From positions 1-41,626 of the forward strand of contig NZ_NHSH01000083.1 of assembly GCF_016653315.1 (NCBI RefSeq): a stretch of DNA of 41,626 bases, read 5' to 3'. Every line of letters starts with the position of its first letter. Position 1 is the first letter of the stretch. This document shows positions 53 to 8,009 of the stretch, in pieces. The position numbers and the translations under genes are program-made. The notes beneath the pieces were generated by a model. That model was not told where the DNA came from. It was given only the letters and a program-made list of their open reading frames with translations, and searched no databases. Source of the DNA: Halochromatium roseum. Lineage in GTDB: Bacteria > Pseudomonadota > Gammaproteobacteria > Chromatiales > Chromatiaceae.

Positions 53-1620
53 TCAGGATGAGAGTGTCTGGTCGCCATGGTAACGCAGCAGCGACTCCCG
101 GTTGCCATGACTTATTGAGAAGTTACTCATTGGGATTGCTTGTCTGCCAAAGGTATTTCGTAGCGCCTCCATTTTTGGGCTTGAATCCCAAGAACAGATC
201 GTCGAGCCTCGATCAGCGCTTCGACTGATTGCAAATCCCGAATAGGTTGCTAACGCATCCCCATAAGCTGTCGCACCCTTTCCAAGTTGATCAATCCCCA
301 AGCCATCATCCGCCATGCCAGCCGCTTCGGCATCGGAAATTGCTTTCTCGCGCGCCTCTTGCACGAGATCGGAGAAGGTCGTCAGGGCGACAAGCTGGCG
401 TGGGGTGAAAAGATCGCCGTAGGTTGTTAGCCCATAGTCGACGGTCCAGAAATTTCGCGGATCATCCGGCAGAGCGGTCTCTGGCTTCCAGATTGGGTCT
501 GGCAAGTCCGCGCAACCTTCCATGTCTTGCGTTGGCGAGAGATAAACCCTCCCTCTCTTCCCTTCAGCGACAACGGCCATCAACCGAGCCTGCATGCGAC
601 CCGCCTTACCTTCGGCCTTAATGTATTTACCCTCAAGCGGCGTACCTGAGAGCACGCAGCGAAAGTTCGCTCCGCGGGAGAGCTTCGTCCCGCTCTTCGC
701 CCCATCCGGCGGCGTCCCAACCCGCACCTCAAACCGATAGCGATCCCCATCAACCACAGGCTCCACCCAAGCCTCTTTGCCCTTCTTGCTCGACAGCACA
801 AAGCTCGAGGCCAACGGCACATCGACATGACTAAACGCCGGATTCGGGCTCTTCACCGTCCGCGCCCAGAGCCAGGCGATTACCGTCAACTCCTGCCCCT
901 CGTAAGCCTTCAGGTCAGGCCGCTCGGCGACCATCTCCGGCGTGATCTCGACCTTGGGATAGAGATGCCCGATGCGCTTGAAGGCCTCCTCACGCATCCA
1001 GTGCCCATAGCGGCGCACGTCCTCGGCCAGCCCCGTTGCTCCAGGCCACTCGCGCGGAAAGCTCTGTTGCTTCTCGCCTTCGGGGATCGGCCCCACCGGC
1101 GCACGCCCGGCAAACTTGGGCGGGATCTCGATCATCGCCTTGTTGATCATCACCGCGACCGGGTTCAGGTCGCTGGCGTAGGCCTCCAGGCCGAGCCGCT
1201 GCGCCTCCAGCGGCAGCGCACCACCGCCGGCGAACGGATCATGGAAGGCGGGGAGCTTGTCTGGATTGAACAGCTCGGCGGCCTGCGGATGGTCGCGCGG
1301 GCGCGCTCGAGCACCGCCTCGTTGTTGGTGTTCTCCCACTTGACCAGGTCGCGGATGATGGCAAAGAGCTTCTCGCGCTTGATCTCCGCCTCTTGCTTGT
1401 TGACGCCGTATTTGAAGCCGCCGTCCTGCTGATAGCCGGGGTCGTTGACCATCTGCGCGAAGATCACCGCCCGTGCTGCTGCCAGCGGTCGCCTTGCCCA
1501 CCATAGATGCAGGGTGCTCGGATGCCCGTGGCGGATCGACTTCTCGCGCGCCGAGGCGACGTTGATGTCGTCGAGCGGCAGGGCGACCTCGATCAGCTTT
1601 TTTGGCGATTTGATGGGCAT
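53..1620 (-). pseudogene. DUF1156-type adenine-specific DNA methylase, frameshifted and C-terminally truncated
   Basis: The start ([20 protein letters not shown]) and the following [19 protein letters not shown] segment are typical of large DUF1156 DNA methylases. The N-terminal part (about 1285-1620) reads to [14 protein letters not shown]. The rest of the homology, [21 protein letters not shown] and on through [12 protein letters not shown], continues in another frame from about 1283 downwards. One missing base near 1283-1285 explains the switch. The second frame runs to [10 protein letters not shown], then to an unrelated tail and a stop at 53. Family members are usually about 900-1000 residues, so roughly 400 are missing, including the later catalytic part. 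The DPFAGGG motif is the SAM-binding loop. The gene lies downstream of a RelBE pair and, further up the same strand, a truncated helicase. In related loci this methylase works with that helicase in phage defence. It is almost certainly inactive here unless the frameshift is a sequencing error, which would still leave the truncation. Confidence 0.85.
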
Positions 1621-1669: not shown

Positions 1670-1945
1670 TCATGGGCGCGGGAGATCGCGGTAGACCTCG
1701 CGCCGGTGGCCGATCTTGACCACCAGCACCAGCAGCGTTTGGTCCTGGATCTGTGCGATCAGGCGATAATCGCCGACGCGGTACCGATAGAGTTGACGCG
1801 GACCTTGCAGCACCCGGCCCAACTCGCGTGGGTCATCATGCTCGGTCAGTCGCGCCATGAATGACACCAACCGCTGTTGCACTGGGCGATCAAGCTTTGC
1901 CAGCTCACGCTTGGCGCGCGGCTTTAGGGCAATCTGCCAGGGCAT
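1670..1945 (-). CDS. relE: RelE/ParE-superfamily mRNA interferase toxin
   Basis: A 91-residue basic protein beginning MPWQIALKPRAKRELAKLD. The central RVGDYRLIAQIQDQ and the C-terminal VVKIGHRREVYRD are the characteristic beta-strand and C-terminal signature of RelE toxins, which cleave mRNA on the ribosome. The length matches the family (about 85-95 residues). The start lies one base after the stop of the antitoxin gene upstream (TGA-G-ATG), so the pair is translationally coupled in the usual antitoxin-toxin order. The family assignment is secure. The exact target is not visible, and ParE-like gyrase poisoning cannot be fully excluded, although the sequence reads as RelE. It sits between the methylase remnant and the IscB element. 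Confidence 0.85.
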   Translation of the reverse strand: MPWQIALKPRAKRELAKLDRPVQQRLVSFMARLTEHDDPRELGRVLQGPRQLYRYRVGDYRLIAQIQDQTLLVLVVKIGHRREVYRDLPRP

Positions 1946-1946
1946 C

Positions 1947-2159
1947 TCAAAGCTCCAGTTCGCGCTTCACCTGCTCCAGCGGAATCGGTGCTTCATCATC
2001 TGCCAGCGCCTCTAACGCATCGGCAAGATCCTCGGCGTCTTCCAAATAATGTTCCACGAGGGCTGCAATCAGTTGTTCTGGAGTCTGGCCACTCGATCTG
2101 GCTAATCCAGCCAGTGCAGTTGCAGCCTGATCAGGAATGTGCACGCTAAGATTTGTCAT
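1947..2159 (-). CDS. relB: RelB-type antitoxin
   Basis: A 70-residue acidic protein starting MTNLSVHIPDQAATALAGLA. It has a short N-terminal strand and helices like ribbon-helix-helix or CopG-type DNA-binding antitoxins, followed by an acidic tail (DAEDLADALEALADDEAPIP) that would wrap the toxin. The frame stays open upstream to 2231, but that extension crosses the GC-rich hairpin at 2177-2196, so 2159 is the better start. It is immediately upstream of and coupled to the RelE gene, which is the main support for the function. It probably represses its own promoter in the short space between 2160 and the IscB hairpin. The protein family is less certain than that of the toxin. Confidence 0.75.
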   Translation of the reverse strand: MTNLSVHIPDQAATALAGLARSSGQTPEQLIAALVEHYLEDAEDLADALEALADDEAPIPLEQVKRELEL

Positions 2160-2176
2160 CAGTCTTGCGCGAGAAA

Positions 2177-2196
2177 CCCCGCCCTTCAGGGCGGGG
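2177..2196 (-). terminator. GC-rich hairpin at the 3' end of the IscB element
   Basis: A perfect 8-bp stem (CCCCGCCC/GGGCGGGG) with a 4-base loop. On the minus strand it is followed by TTTCTCG. It lies between the iscB stop and relB and could end iscB transcription, mark the right end of the IscB element as in IS200/IS605-like units, or do both. A second short palindrome (CCGCGC-GCA-GCGCGG, 2209-2223) abuts the iscB stop codon. Confidence 0.55.
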
Positions 2197-2223
2197 AGGG
2201 AAAGCGCACCGCGCGCAGCGCGG

Positions 2224-3570
2224 TTAGGCAACCCGTCTCGCTTCCTCCGTTAACGTTGGGTGAATAGCATAGCCATAACCGTCGGCGCGTTGCACCACGC
2301 GGCAATGGCGGTGTGAAATCCCTTGGACCACGCCGCGCGCGGTCTGGATGTTGAAGGAGCCTGTCTTGCGCACCGCGACCCGTCCCACATGGTTTCCGGC
2401 GTGCTTGCCACTCGGCACCTCGGCAACGACCCGATCCCCGGTCTGGACGCCGTGGATGCGCTTGCGCCGGGTGAGGTAGCCGCGCGGGAAGCCGAAGCGA
2501 TCGAGTCGGGTACGCTGATAGCTTCCCCGCCACGTGGCCTTGATGGCCAGCGTCGGTCTGTTCCATCCATGCAGCGCCTCAAGCGGCCCGACACAGACGG
2601 CATCGAGCGCATGGGTCTTGGGAATCCCGAGGCGCTGGCGGTTGTACTTGGTCTGAGCGCCGGAGCTGCTTGCCACGGGTAAACCTGTGGCCTTGAGTCG
2701 CTCAAACAGCGCCCAGCGGGTGGCATTCACAGCAGCGGCATCCCTGAGTGGCGTCTTGGCCTGCGCCTGGATGCGGTGCAGCACCGTTGGTTTGTCCTTG
2801 AGAAAATGCTCGATTGGCTGGCTGCCCTTCCGTTCGTTACAGGGGGCACAAGCCAGGGTCAGGTTGCTGACCCGATTCGAGCCGCCCCGGCTCTTGGGCT
2901 GGATGTGTTCGATCTGGAGGGGGACGCCCTGGGCGCCGCAATAGGCGCAGGTGCGGTGCCATTTCTCCAACAGGTATTCGCGCACTTCGTAGCCAGCGAG
3001 TTCGCCTTGTTGGTAGTCGATGCCGCTGATTTCGGGATTCTGCATCGCTTGGGTGTCGAAGCGCACTAACTCTTGATGGAGGCTGGTGATCGGTGCGAGA
3101 CGCTGTAAGCGCGCCACCCAGCTCAGGGTGGTGTCCAGGCGATGGCGCAGACTCGGCGCGAGCCAGCCTTGGGGCTTGGTGCGATTGAGGAAGCGCGGGG
3201 CGCGATGCCGCAAGTTCTGTGTGCGGCGGCGACGCCGAGAGGCGCGGCGCGATGCCAGCCTGTCACGAATCTGAGCGCCGCGATGGGTGAGTTCACCCAG
3301 CCACACCACATGCGCCTCACGGCGCACCTCGCCCGTGTCGGGGTCGAGGGTCTCGTCTTCGCGCACCAATGCTATGCCTGTGGTCCGGCTGCCCGGATCA
3401 AGCTGCAAGCGCAGCGGTTGGGTCTCGCCGCCGAGGCGGTCTTTCAGCCGGATGGTGAAGGGGTGCAGCCGCACCACCACAGCCCGCCCGCGTTCCAACA
3501 ACAGCCGCGCCCGCTTCTCTGAGCAGGGCATCAGTGGGTGCTTTTTCTTGTCCAAAACAAAGACGGCCAT
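2224..3570 (-). CDS. iscB: IscB RNA-guided HNH/RuvC endonuclease
   Basis: A 448-residue protein with the full IscB domain order. An N-terminal PLMP domain (HPLMPCSEKRARLLLERGRA, about residues 11-30) is followed by RuvC-I (LQLDPGSRTTGIAL, Asp58), an arginine-rich bridge helix (RRASRRRRR, about 108-116), RuvC-II (SLHQEL, Glu167), an HNH domain with Cys208/Cys211 and Cys241/Cys244 plus the EH pair at 221-222, RuvC-III (HALD, His320 and Asp323), and a C-terminal target/TAM-interacting region. All expected catalytic residues are visible, so the enzyme should be active. IscB proteins, ancestors of Cas9, use an omega-RNA encoded directly upstream to cut double-stranded DNA. The frame is open further upstream to 3705 through the RNA region, but the PLMP-type start at 3570 fits the family. 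No transposase gene is adjacent. Confidence 0.93.
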   Translation of the reverse strand: MAVFVLDKKKHPLMPCSEKRARLLLERGRAVVVRLHPFTIRLKDRLGGETQPLRLQLDPGSRTTGIALVREDETLDPDTGEVRREAHVVWLGELTHRGAQIRDRLASRRASRRRRRTQNLRHRAPRFLNRTKPQGWLAPSLRHRLDTTLSWVARLQRLAPITSLHQELVRFDTQAMQNPEISGIDYQQGELAGYEVREYLLEKWHRTCAYCGAQGVPLQIEHIQPKSRGGSNRVSNLTLACAPCNERKGSQPIEHFLKDKPTVLHRIQAQAKTPLRDAAAVNATRWALFERLKATGLPVASSSGAQTKYNRQRLGIPKTHALDAVCVGPLEALHGWNRPTLAIKATWRGSYQRTRLDRFGFPRGYLTRRKRIHGVQTGDRVVAEVPSGKHAGNHVGRVAVRKTGSFNIQTARGVVQGISHRHCRVVQRADGYGYAIHPTLTEEARRVA

Positions 3571-3850
3571 ACGGTTCTCCAAAATCAGCGCCCTTACGGG
3601 CCTGGTGACAGAGCCTTGCGACTCGCTCCCCTCGGGCATGTGCACCACCGGCTCCCGCCTCGCGGCAGCGATCAGCACATTCGGCGTTTTACCTTGCGCC
3701 AGCATGATCCTGATCTTCCAGGGTCCGGGACTGAGGAAGCATCCCGGAGTGGGTCTTCACGACCTGTGATGCACGGAGCGGGTTTTCACCGCTTGCCCTG
3801 GTCAACCGAGCTTGCTTTCACAAGCTCCGGCCTTTAGGCCGGGGTAGTTG
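3571..3850 (-). ncRNA. Putative omega-RNA (HEARO RNA) upstream of iscB
   Basis: In IscB systems the guide RNA scaffold lies directly 5' of the iscB gene, with the guide at its 5' end taken from flanking DNA. This 280-base stretch has no recognised gene and is rich in short palindromes. One hairpin is CCGG-CCT-TTAGG-CCGG (3827-3842) and another is a 7-bp GAGCTTG/CAAGCTC stem (3808-3827), both near the expected 5' end. The scaffold would start close to 3850 and run into the iscB start region. The guide would then be the minus-strand copy of about 3851-3870, which overlaps the end of the neighbouring UPF0175-like gene. Both the position and the structures support this; the boundaries are inferred. 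Confidence 0.7.
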
Positions 3851-3856
3851 ACTTGC

Positions 3857-4176
3857 TCAAAAAGATTGGTGTTGTCCCGTCTCAAGGGTATTGAACGAGT
3901 CGCCAAGCTCAAAGCCCAAGCTGAGATCCTCGCGCGCGGTGTCGTCCTCAATTCGAAATCCGTAGCCGAAGTGCTCCTTGAGTCTGTAGTGGAATTCCTC
4001 ATAGCCCAGACCGGACAAGGCCGCGGCTGTCCCAAAGCTCACCTTGCCGGCGTGATATAGGCTGGCGGCCAGGAAGAAGTCTTCCGCGCCATCGCCGAAA
4101 GGCTCCAAGATCGTTGCAAAATCAGGATGTGTCATCGGTGCAGACATCGGGCGTTGCTGACTGATTGGCGATCTGG

Positions 4177-4180
<4 letters not shown>
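3857..4180 (-). CDS. UPF0175-like small protein (possible antitoxin), coupled to the helicase remnant
   Basis: A 107-residue protein. The core ([20 protein letters not shown], then [13 protein letters not shown]) resembles UPF0175 proteins, small helix-turn-helix antitoxins whose hallmark is a 'LY..GK.S.G.AA..A....EF' pattern. Its start overlaps the helicase stop by 4 nt (ATGA), so it belonged to the same operon. The last 15 or so residues ([15 protein letters not shown]) do not look conserved. The stop lies within a few bases of the IscB element edge, so the original C-terminus may have been altered by the insertion. No DUF3368-type partner toxin is visible next to it. Function is inferred from a weak family match. 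Confidence 0.55.
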
Positions 4181-6282
<2,102 letters not shown>

Positions 6283-6427
6283 GCGTTGACGCCACTACAC
6301 CCTGACCTTGCGCGTCTTGAGTCGTCAGAGCCACTGATACTACGCCGCGGCGCGACCGAGGCGATTTGATCTAGGGCAAGCGAAACCAGGGGCCTTGCGT
6401 CTGGCTTTTCATACGCTGGCTTTCCTG

Positions 6428-6457
6428 TCGCGAGCTTCTCAGTTGCGAGCTTATCAG
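6428..6457 (+). repeat. 15-nt tandem duplication in the gatB leader
   Basis: Two copies of a 15-mer (TCGCGAGCTTCTCAG, then TTGCGAGCTTATCAG), differing at two positions, lie about 110-140 bases upstream of gatB. The duplication sits next to a possible -10 box (TAGAAT, 6469-6474) that could drive gatB. No convincing -35 box at 16-18 bp spacing was found, so the promoter is only a suggestion. The remaining 6283-6566 spacer shows no gene. Confidence 0.5.
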
Positions 6458-6566
6458 TCGTCTTGGGCTAGAATGCAGCGTCATCCGCAACCAGACGCCG
6501 GCCGCCCCGTTCCGTGGCAAGAGCGCGGCAACAGCGCGGCAAGCCCCCAACGAGAACCGAATCCGC

Positions 6567-8009
6567 ATGCAATGGGAACCCGTGATCGGGCTGGAGATCC
6601 ATACCCAGCTCGCGACTGAATCGAAGATCTTTTCCGGCGCCTCGACCGCCTTTGGTGCGGAGCCGAATACCCAGGCCTGCGCGATCGATCTCGGCCTGCC
6701 GGGGGTGCTGCCGGTGCTGAACCTAGGCGCGGTGCAGCGGGCGGTGCAGTTCGGGCGCGCGATCGGGGCTGAGATCGCGCCGCGCTCGGTGTTTGCGCGC
6801 AAGAACTACTTCTACCCGGATCTGCCCAAGGGCTACCAGATCAGCCAGTACGAGCTGCCGATCGTCGGCAAAGGCAAACTCGAGATCGTTCTCGACGATG
6901 GTACGCAGCGGACCATCGGTGTCACCCGCGCGCATCTTGAAGAAGATGCCGGTAAGTCACTGCATGAAACCTTCTCGGGCGCCGGCGGCGGGCTCACGGG
7001 GATCGACCTCAACCGCGCCGGCACGCCGCTCTTGGAGATCGTCTCCGAACCCGATCTACGCTCGGCCGAAGAGGCCGTGGCCTACGCGCGCAAGATCCAT
7101 CAGCTAGTGCGCTGGATCGGCATCAGCGACGGCAACATGCAGGAGGGCTCGTTTCGGGTCGATGCCAATGTCTCGGTGCATCGCCCCGGTGCCCCCTTCG
7201 GCACCCGTGCCGAGATCAAGAACATCAACTCGTTCCGCTTCCTACAGAAGGCGATCGAATTCGAGATCGAGCGTCAGATCGAGCTGCTCGAGGACGGCGG
7301 CAGCGTGGTACAAGAGACCCGGCTCTATGATGCCGACAAGGACGAGACGCGCTCGATGCGCAGCAAGGAGGAGGCCAACGACTACCGCTACTTCCCCGAT
7401 CCAGACCTGTTGCCGGTCGAACTCGACGAGTCCTTTGTCGAGGCGGCCACCGCCGAGCTCCCCGAGCTGCCCGATGCGATGCGGCAACGCTTCCGCGACG
7501 CCTACGGCATCGGCGACGCGGATGCCGTGCAGCTCACCAGCAGCCGCGCCACGGCGGCCTACTTCGAGACGGTGGTCGCGCTCACCGGCGATGCCAAACT
7601 CACCGCGAACTGGATCAACGGCAGCCTCGCCGCGGCGCTGAACAAGGCCGGGCTCGAGATCAGCGACAGCCCAGTCAGCAGCGAGCAGCTCGCCGGGCTA
7701 CTCAAACGCATTCAAGACAACACCCTCTCCGGCAAGATCGCCAAGCAGGTGTTCGAGGCGATCTGGGCCGGTGAAGGCGACGCCGACCAGGTGATCGAGG
7801 CCAAGGGCCTGAAGCAGATCACCGACAGTGGTGCCATCGAGCAGATGATCGATGCGATCATCGCCGCCAATCCCGCGCAGGTGGAGCAATATCGGGCTGG
7901 CAAGGAAAAGGTCTTCGGCTTCTTCGTCGGCCAGGTGATGAAGCAGAGCCAGGGCAAGGCGAATCCGCAGCAGGTCAACGACCTGCTCAAGGCCAAGCTC
8001 AAGGGCTGA
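6567..8009 (+). CDS. gatB: Aspartyl/glutamyl-tRNA(Asn/Gln) amidotransferase subunit B
   Basis: The 480-residue protein matches GatB over its full length. It opens with [20 protein letters not shown] and carries the conserved [15 protein letters not shown] block and a C-terminal YqeY-like helical domain ending [20 protein letters not shown]. GatB carries the kinase/transamidase site that activates misacylated Glu-tRNA(Gln) or Asp-tRNA(Asn) with ATP. Ammonia comes from the GatA amidase, and GatC holds the two together. In most gammaproteobacteria gatC-gatA lie immediately upstream. Here the upstream neighbour is the edge of a decayed defence island, so gatB has been separated from its partners or they were always elsewhere. 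The enzyme itself looks intact. Confidence 0.97.

Follow-up and report, generated by a model that had tools for sequence, protein, structure and literature searches.

IscB proteins, the likely ancestors of Cas9, are guided by the 5' end of an omega-RNA, which is read from DNA outside the element, and the target-adjacent motif (TAM) lies 3' of the target. In IS200/IS605 elements, the TAM of the nuclease TnpB is also the target of the transposase, and RNA-guided cutting of empty sites favours the element. Because the TnpB guide lies at the 3' end of its RNA, the promoter can lie inside the element, whereas the 5' guide of IscB places the promoter outside. To our knowledge, why IscB reads its motifs and how a 5'-guided RNA gets its promoter are open questions. 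We analysed an IscB/HEARO element in a 41,626-nucleotide stretch of DNA from the purple sulfur bacterium Halochromatium roseum (contig NZ_NHSH01000083.1; the whole stretch is called the window). It ends directly before the ATG of an antitoxin gene, and we consider it probable that this is start-codon docking by an apparently intact, non-autonomous IscB element, for which an NTGA start would be the landing site, the mark read by the nuclease and the source of a host promoter.

Apart from the lack of tnpA, the element itself is a regular IscB/HEARO member. It shares with IscB/OMEGA systems (ISC, HEARO) the PLMP motif, RuvC and HNH domains, a HEARO omega-RNA upstream, a flank-derived guide and hairpin ends, and differs from them as described in its start-codon docking and, in some copies, in a right end with a Shine-Dalgarno sequence or a stop/start overlap. 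NTGA, NTG and NTGG TAMs have been measured for DtIsrB and other IsrB relatives, and in these too the motif on the 3' side of the target can be read as a start codon (NTG), with A or G as the next base in some; unlike the window IscB, IsrB has no HNH domain and nicks, and the available part of that paper does not connect its TAM with gene starts (PMC9581776). OgeuIscB and OrufIscB resemble the window protein in family, fold and omega-RNA use, and their reported TAMs are NWRGNA (engineered OgeuIscB) and NTAAA (OrufIscB); these are not start codons, so a docking rule cannot hold for all IscB (PMC13180657). IStrons also make their insertion harmless to the host, and achieve this by RNA splicing (PMC4227781), whereas the window element would do so by start-codon docking.

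The literature searched, which did not include the older key papers on HEARO and IscB, yielded no description of start-codon docking or of such right ends, and no connection of the TAM with start codons. Novelty of the docking rule is therefore not established, and the discoverers of HEARO may have seen part of it; Weinberg's discovery paper of 2009 reportedly describes insertion beside ATGA or GTGA.

The element, its nuclease and its guide

The element lies on contig C83 of a 5.17-Mb, 88-contig genome. Its parts and the adjoining gene, all on the minus strand, are as follows.

2160..3852, minus: IscB/HEARO element, 1,693 bp; left end at 3852 (GTCAACTACC...), right end at 2160 (...GCAAGACTG)
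3853..3868, minus: predicted 16-nt guide CAAUCUUUUUGAGCAA, in host DNA outside the element, placed by its position relative to the HEARO start
3620..3852, minus: omega-RNA scaffold, HEARO RF02033 (full model 1-211, 112.2 bits, E 1.6e-22)
2224..3570, minus: iscB, 448 aa, its start preceded by GGAG; identified by family, fold and alignment evidence
2177..2199, minus: right-end hairpin CCTCCCCGCCCTGAAGGGCGGGG, then TTTCTCGCGCAAGACTG; common to the right ends of relatives
2156..2159, minus: ATGA, the putative TAM and antitoxin start codon, from comparison of right ends
1947..2159, minus: RelB/RHH-like antitoxin gene, 70 aa (Pfam RHH_1, 22.6 bits; cut-off 20.5)

The left end coincides with base 1 of the HEARO model and with the conserved start of 26 left ends from Rhabdochromatium marinum, which open with GTCAACTAC (at most one mismatch) and are preceded by unrelated sequence. 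The right end, which matches exactly the coordinate 2160 of the initial annotation, is the last position kept among copies, with variable flank beyond. Right ends of relatives run from the hairpin through TTTCTCGCGCAAGACTG or a variant to ATGA and then into unrelated sequence. These conserved ends and the adjoining NTGA, with one GTCA exception among the right ends compared, give the element the hairpins and the precise insertion beside a fixed tetranucleotide that mark IS200/IS605-type (ISC) elements.

The initial annotation had proposed a covariance search for HEARO upstream of iscB. This search returned RF02033 as the only Rfam match above its gathering score (83) in the 41.6-kb window. Across 21 copies (L145, a wrong stretch, was left out of this count), 67 consensus pairs were predicted, 35 of them with at least one compensatory change, in agreement with the earlier description of the RNA region as structured. 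Omega-RNA-only elements without iscB were seen at L097:3862-4246 (385 bp), L172:501-883 (383 bp) and, on the reversed strand, L108 1501-1656 (156 bp); the L172 and L108 elements each stand before the start of a long open reading frame (ORF) and have GGAGG-type right ends. These omega-RNA-only elements are non-autonomous.

The 448-aa ORF matched NCBIfam guided_IscB at 463 bits (cut-off 175), both Pfam RRXRR and HNH, and, in a sequence search of solved structures, IscB chains (E 1e-44 to 1.5e-18). The best Foldseek match of its predicted fold was 8csz (E 9e-25), a structure of IscB bound to omega-RNA and target DNA; the TM-score relative to the query was 0.51, and the overall root-mean-square deviation was poor. 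The mean predicted local distance difference test score of the model was 81. RuvC with an inserted HNH, an N-terminal PLMP motif and an arginine-rich helix were present. All RuvC and HNH residues and the four cysteines listed in the initial annotation were recovered: in a 24-sequence IscB alignment, D58, E167, H222, H320, C208 and C211 were kept in at least 90% of sequences and D323, C241 and C244 in all, and E221, present in the window IscB, alone fell outside the 90% columns. The IscB of Acidithiobacillus marinus (L041) lacks the RuvC-I aspartate at alignment position 58 (D58), with ITPGS in place of LDPGS, and is possibly a nickase or RuvC-dead; it adjoins a TTGA able to start the next ORF.

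Pairwise ratios of nonsynonymous to synonymous substitution (dN/dS) for iscB were 0.06-0.21 against five Chromatiaceae copies and 0.25 against one more distant copy, with synonymous sites near saturation in one pair. On these ratios, IscB is under purifying selection. With both ends, the HEARO match and the open 448-aa frame in place, the earlier call of an apparently intact IscB with its omega-RNA stands, and the element is apparently a complete, non-autonomous IscB of HEARO type. The copy might instead be a dead relic, complete in sequence and silent or inactive: reading the flank upstream of the guide named no promoter, and the host island is decaying. The open frame, the dN/dS of 0.06-0.25 against six relatives and the compensatory changes in the RNA speak against a relic, and upstream genes on the same strand could supply transcription, so that we regard silence or inactivity as unlikely.

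The boundary at 3852|3853 fixes the guide at 3853-3868, read on the minus strand from 3868 to 3853 as CAATCTTTTTGAGCAA. It spans the last codons and stop of a UPF0175-like gene plus 4 nt. The initial annotation had rightly placed the guide at the end of this gene, outside the element, and its limits (about 3851-3870) were 1-2 bases off. An exact match to the guide occurred once in the own genome, at its own locus. As for a second target there, 36 sites with 2-3 mismatches were found, and none of the three opened was followed by NTGA. We infer that the window IscB, as a predicted RNA-guided nuclease, would cut sites consisting of the guide followed by ATGA.

A HEARO search of the own genome (5.17 Mb) returned a single match, the window copy, and the element holds no tnpA, or any second gene, besides iscB; it is thus a non-autonomous derivative at best. 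Y1-domain matches occurred at four other places, the best of them (C77, G000:C77:6229-6584) split over two frames and the others on C55, C72 and C53. The closest named carriers of related IscB are Chromatiaceae (Rhabdochromatium, Halochromatium, Allochromatium). The single copy, the split Y1 match, the position between remnants of hmaA and hmaB and the purifying selection would all suit a domesticated IscB that serves the host in regulation or defence, for instance by repressing or cutting a locus named by its guide. The guide, however, matched exactly only its own flank, and the three sites opened among the 36 lacked NTGA; moreover, the nuclease has its catalytic residues, the same appearance is shared by many relatives whose genomes hold multiple copies, and the island itself is broken. 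Domestication therefore seems very unlikely to us.

At the right edge, the element directly abuts the antitoxin start, and ATGACAAATC opens the antitoxin gene on the same strand, a relation beyond the initial annotation. The antitoxin scored 37.6 bits against NCBIfam RelB-like, under the cut-off of 50. The same locus in a genome of the same genus (G002) lacks the element and keeps both ATGACAAATC and the antitoxin ATGA, so ATGA belongs to the target and not to the element. NTGA also flanks the tabulated right ends. These comparisons suggest that the start codon is both the landing site and the mark that the nuclease would read.

Right ends and start codons among relatives

In the main R. marinum subfamily, 8/11 right ends open an ORF of at least 187 aa exactly at ATGA. 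The remaining three are C3 (a second ATGA 14 nt on), C6a (46-aa ORF) and C89 (36-aa ORF). A twelfth end, L157, came from a later script search and opens a 288-aa ORF, which would give 9/12. C38 (L047), whose right end has no hairpin, was excluded from the counts; its downstream ATGA opens a 244-aa ORF. In this genome (G011), HEARO matched 33 times, many at contig ends, and the element is so repeated that the assembly seems broken by it.

In the wider set, an ORF of at least 70 aa opens at 24/34 right ends (24/35 with the copy in vapC). A 54-end set, made up of 30 rows common with the 34-end set, 12 plasmid records and 12 viral-contig records, contained 39 ends that open an ORF of at least 60 aa or one that runs off the stretch; L257 is a miss there through a wrongly set boundary, and has TTGA in a motif-only set. 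These counts are biased towards starts, since in distant clades some boundaries were set by an observer who could see the ORF. One viral contig, L074 (IMGVR_UViG_3300028751_000018), has a HEARO match of 134 bits, a tmRNA and five tRNA matches; the ORF after its IscB starts ATGG, which would fit an NTGG TAM.

We searched 23 downstream proteins against NCBIfam, Pfam or both. In ten, the alignment to a family model begins close to the first model position (protein residue to model position: UbiG 12 to 1, TsaB 3 to 1, AlgH 5 to 2, oxopropionate reductase-like 10 to 2, IorA 10 to 2, DUF5615 1 to 1, Usp 1 to 1, response regulator 8 to 2, RecJ 12 to 14 and GlgB 8 to 28). Another ten had matches to domains or weak models only, which do not place the start, and three (L151, L214 and L048) had no family match; no clear case of a gene cut in the middle was seen among the 23. 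Matches occurred in 88 plasmid records, of which the 12 best-scoring were taken, with two near-duplicates left out; nine were annotated there, and in 7/9 the next annotated coding sequence begins at the boundary (L331 and L336, among these seven, look like one insertion). In some plasmid copies the element end adds an in-frame ATG, so that the annotated start falls at ATGA or one codon before it. Taken together, docking at an NTGA start, in the orientation of the gene, is usual in the clade on the evidence of most relatives examined.

Two arrangements at the right end could serve translation of the docked gene. GGAGG plus 5 nt before NTGA ends the right end in G041, G034, G006 and G390, and the iscB frame extends across the right end to the TGA within NTGA in Schekmanbacteria, Sulfobacillus and R. 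marinum C46. A general rule by which the iscB stop overlaps the next start was rejected. Among 112 distinct IscB ends (115 less three with too little downstream DNA), 4-nt overlaps occurred in 18 (16%) vs 87/661 control ORFs (13%), and 1-nt overlaps in 4/112 vs 17/661. The overlap was found in Schekmanbacteria, Sulfobacillus and one R. marinum subfamily, with 1-nt overlaps in two plasmid records.

The background for these counts was 398 kb of R. marinum with a simple ORF caller. Among 3,093 background ATGA, 154 (5%) fall in codons 1-40 of a called ORF, 64 of these exactly at the longest start; 329 are intergenic and 2,610 are inside genes. Against random insertion (154/3,093), 8/11 gives a binomial p of 5e-9. 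The pattern could also reflect survivorship only, with insertion at any TCAT/NTGA, loss of gene-internal copies, and docking without a function or a link to promoters. NTGA is short and common, a few gene-internal insertions exist, and when gene-breaking insertions are taken as lost, the null of start-like and intergenic ATGA (154/483, 32%) cuts the enrichment of 8/11 to p 0.0065. Against the same null, however, the wider 24/35 gives p 9e-6, with the R. marinum background applied to all taxa and some boundaries set with the ORF in view. Shine-Dalgarno sequences in R. marinum left flanks are also about as frequent as at true starts (below). We regard survivorship alone as doubtful.

Left flanks and a proposed mechanism

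AGGA, GGAG or GAGG was found at -16 to -3 in 9/26 R. marinum left flanks, compared with 287/3,093 background ATGA (9.3%; p 3.7e-4) and 23/64 ATGA starts of longest ORFs. The spacing of these tetramers to the element boundary was 4-10 nt. Left flanks of other taxa, which have no background of their own, carried such a tetramer in 5/25.

Element-free alleles were compared for two docked genes. For algH, 17 relatives were looked at, from 29 further matches listed, and none of the 17 has an element at the algH start. ATGA opens algH in 10/17, and GATAC lies at most 22 nt from the start in 14/17 (background 36/3,092). The left flank of the element at R. marinum algH, TTGC...GGAATACT, has an arrangement like that of the element-free promoter-like region, and ends in TTGC...GGAATACTTAGGAACCT with no exact GATAC; the likeness consists of short promoter-like motifs that were read by eye and then counted. 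The ubiG start is ATGA in 13/22 relatives and GTGA in 3/22, and the neighbour gene upstream of the R. marinum ubiG left flank is common to 2/22 relatives. The left flank may be the promoter and leader of the docked gene, with a good fit for R. marinum algH and a partial one for ubiG; in the window the left flank is the end of the UPF0175-like gene.

In the start-codon docking that we favour, a Y1 transposase acting in trans would insert the element beside TCAT/NTGA. IscB with its omega-RNA (guide CAAUCUUUUUGAGCAA) would then cut alleles that carry the guide followed by ATGA, that is, empty sites, and such cutting would promote retention or recovery of the element. With the guide forming the 5' end of the omega-RNA, beyond the boundary of the element, the promoter has to be a host one, which docking at a start codon would supply. 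A start codon may be the only kind of site that has a promoter, or transcription in the right direction, nearly guaranteed upstream and leaves the downstream gene uncut. The host 5' leader, often with its Shine-Dalgarno sequence, would become the guide. The downstream gene would be left whole, with the right end of the element serving its translation through GGAGG at proper spacing in some copies or an iscB stop overlapping the start in others. In the window copy neither is strong, so the antitoxin would be translated otherwise, or weakly.

Several observations weigh against start-codon docking. The left flank in the window is the end of a coding sequence with no clear promoter or Shine-Dalgarno sequence. 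The initial annotation had advised comparing relatives for an empty site; G002, without the element and with ATGA kept, answers this in part, and the UPF0175 left flank is absent there, so G002 is no perfect empty site of the window, in search of which only G002 and the element-free own paralogue C29 were found. Promoter scoring of the 26 R. marinum left flanks was marginal (p 0.047), and an in-frame stop test gave 17/26 vs 1,646/3,079 in the background. The R. marinum algH flank has GAATAC instead of GATAC, and a longer nucleotide match upstream of algH was not found with blastn at E 1e-3. Insertions off starts comprise 3/11 in R. marinum, G001, G006 (in a vapC gene) and others; that in G001 lies inside an apparent cobW gene, as read without a family search. 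The stop/start overlap, hardly above controls, marks some clades only. In a weaker, motif-only test, an ORF of at least 60 aa, or open-ended, begins at 25/37 NTGA right ends, against 990/3,031 control ATGA (33%; p 1.5e-5), and this control also counts in-frame methionines inside genes, so homology matters. L024, among these 37, proved not to be an element. Eight further rows had no NTGA, and one of these, L328, resembles a real right end, then followed by GTCA.

The Hma island and the place of the element in it

The element sits in a slot between remnants of hmaA and hmaB. The other genes of this region, all on the minus strand, are listed below.

4177..6282, minus: hmaA remnant, C-terminal part (PADLOC HmaA, 1225 bits, profile 485-1172 of 1176)
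3857..4180, minus: UPF0175-like gene, 107 aa, ending 4 nt short of the element (Pfam UPF0175, 26.1 bits; narrowly misses the cut-off of 27.9)
1670..1945, minus: ParE/RelE-like toxin gene, 91 aa (Pfam ParE_toxin, 50.9 bits)
53..1620, minus: hmaB remnant in two frames, 1620-1165 and 1504-53 (PADLOC HmaB profile 3-114, then 124/125-517/518)

The order on the minus strand from 4180 to 1670 is UPF0175-like gene, IscB element, RelB-like antitoxin and ParE-like toxin. With HmaA present from profile position 485 only and HmaB in two frames close to the contig end, the decaying defence island of the initial annotation can be named as a broken Hma system; a full-length HmaA of 1,226 aa is encoded elsewhere in the same genome. 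Four alleles of the hmaA-hmaB slot (L095:5000-5700; L096:5370-6190, from G000:C29; L097:3200-3860; window 1670-4180) carry different small cassettes: UPF0175 and RelBE-like genes in the window, a RelB-like gene with a second small gene in G002, a different pair in the own paralogue C29, and a Phd/VapC-like cassette in G006, the last by reading translations without a family search. The slot thus seems, from these four alleles, to be a hot spot for the exchange of small toxin-antitoxin-like cassettes. G006 also has a 385-bp omega-RNA-only element in the slot, at a target different from that in the window; IscB-family insertions hence occur there in two species, at different targets. Two alleles have a four-helix-bundle-type ORF inside or beside hmaB (L095, about 6191-6526; L096, about 6727-7086), which we take to resemble those in 23S rRNA intervening sequences.

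For the family, the analysis would bear on both questions raised at the outset. If docking is true, a lineage whose TAM is a start codon answers the choice of motif and the source of the promoter together. Tentatively, the TAM of this lineage may in effect be the bacterial start codon (NTGA), and the NTG, NTGA and NTGG TAMs of IsrB may be traces of an ancient habit of targeting start codons, out of which the reading of protospacer-adjacent motifs by Cas9 later evolved. Guides would correspond to the 5' leaders of host genes and the starts of omega-RNAs to those of host transcripts, and the element would travel in operons with almost no harm to the host. Natural guides and TAMs could then be read off genomes by a simple rule, and R. 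marinum, with its many HEARO matches, would be a good organism for work on the RNA.

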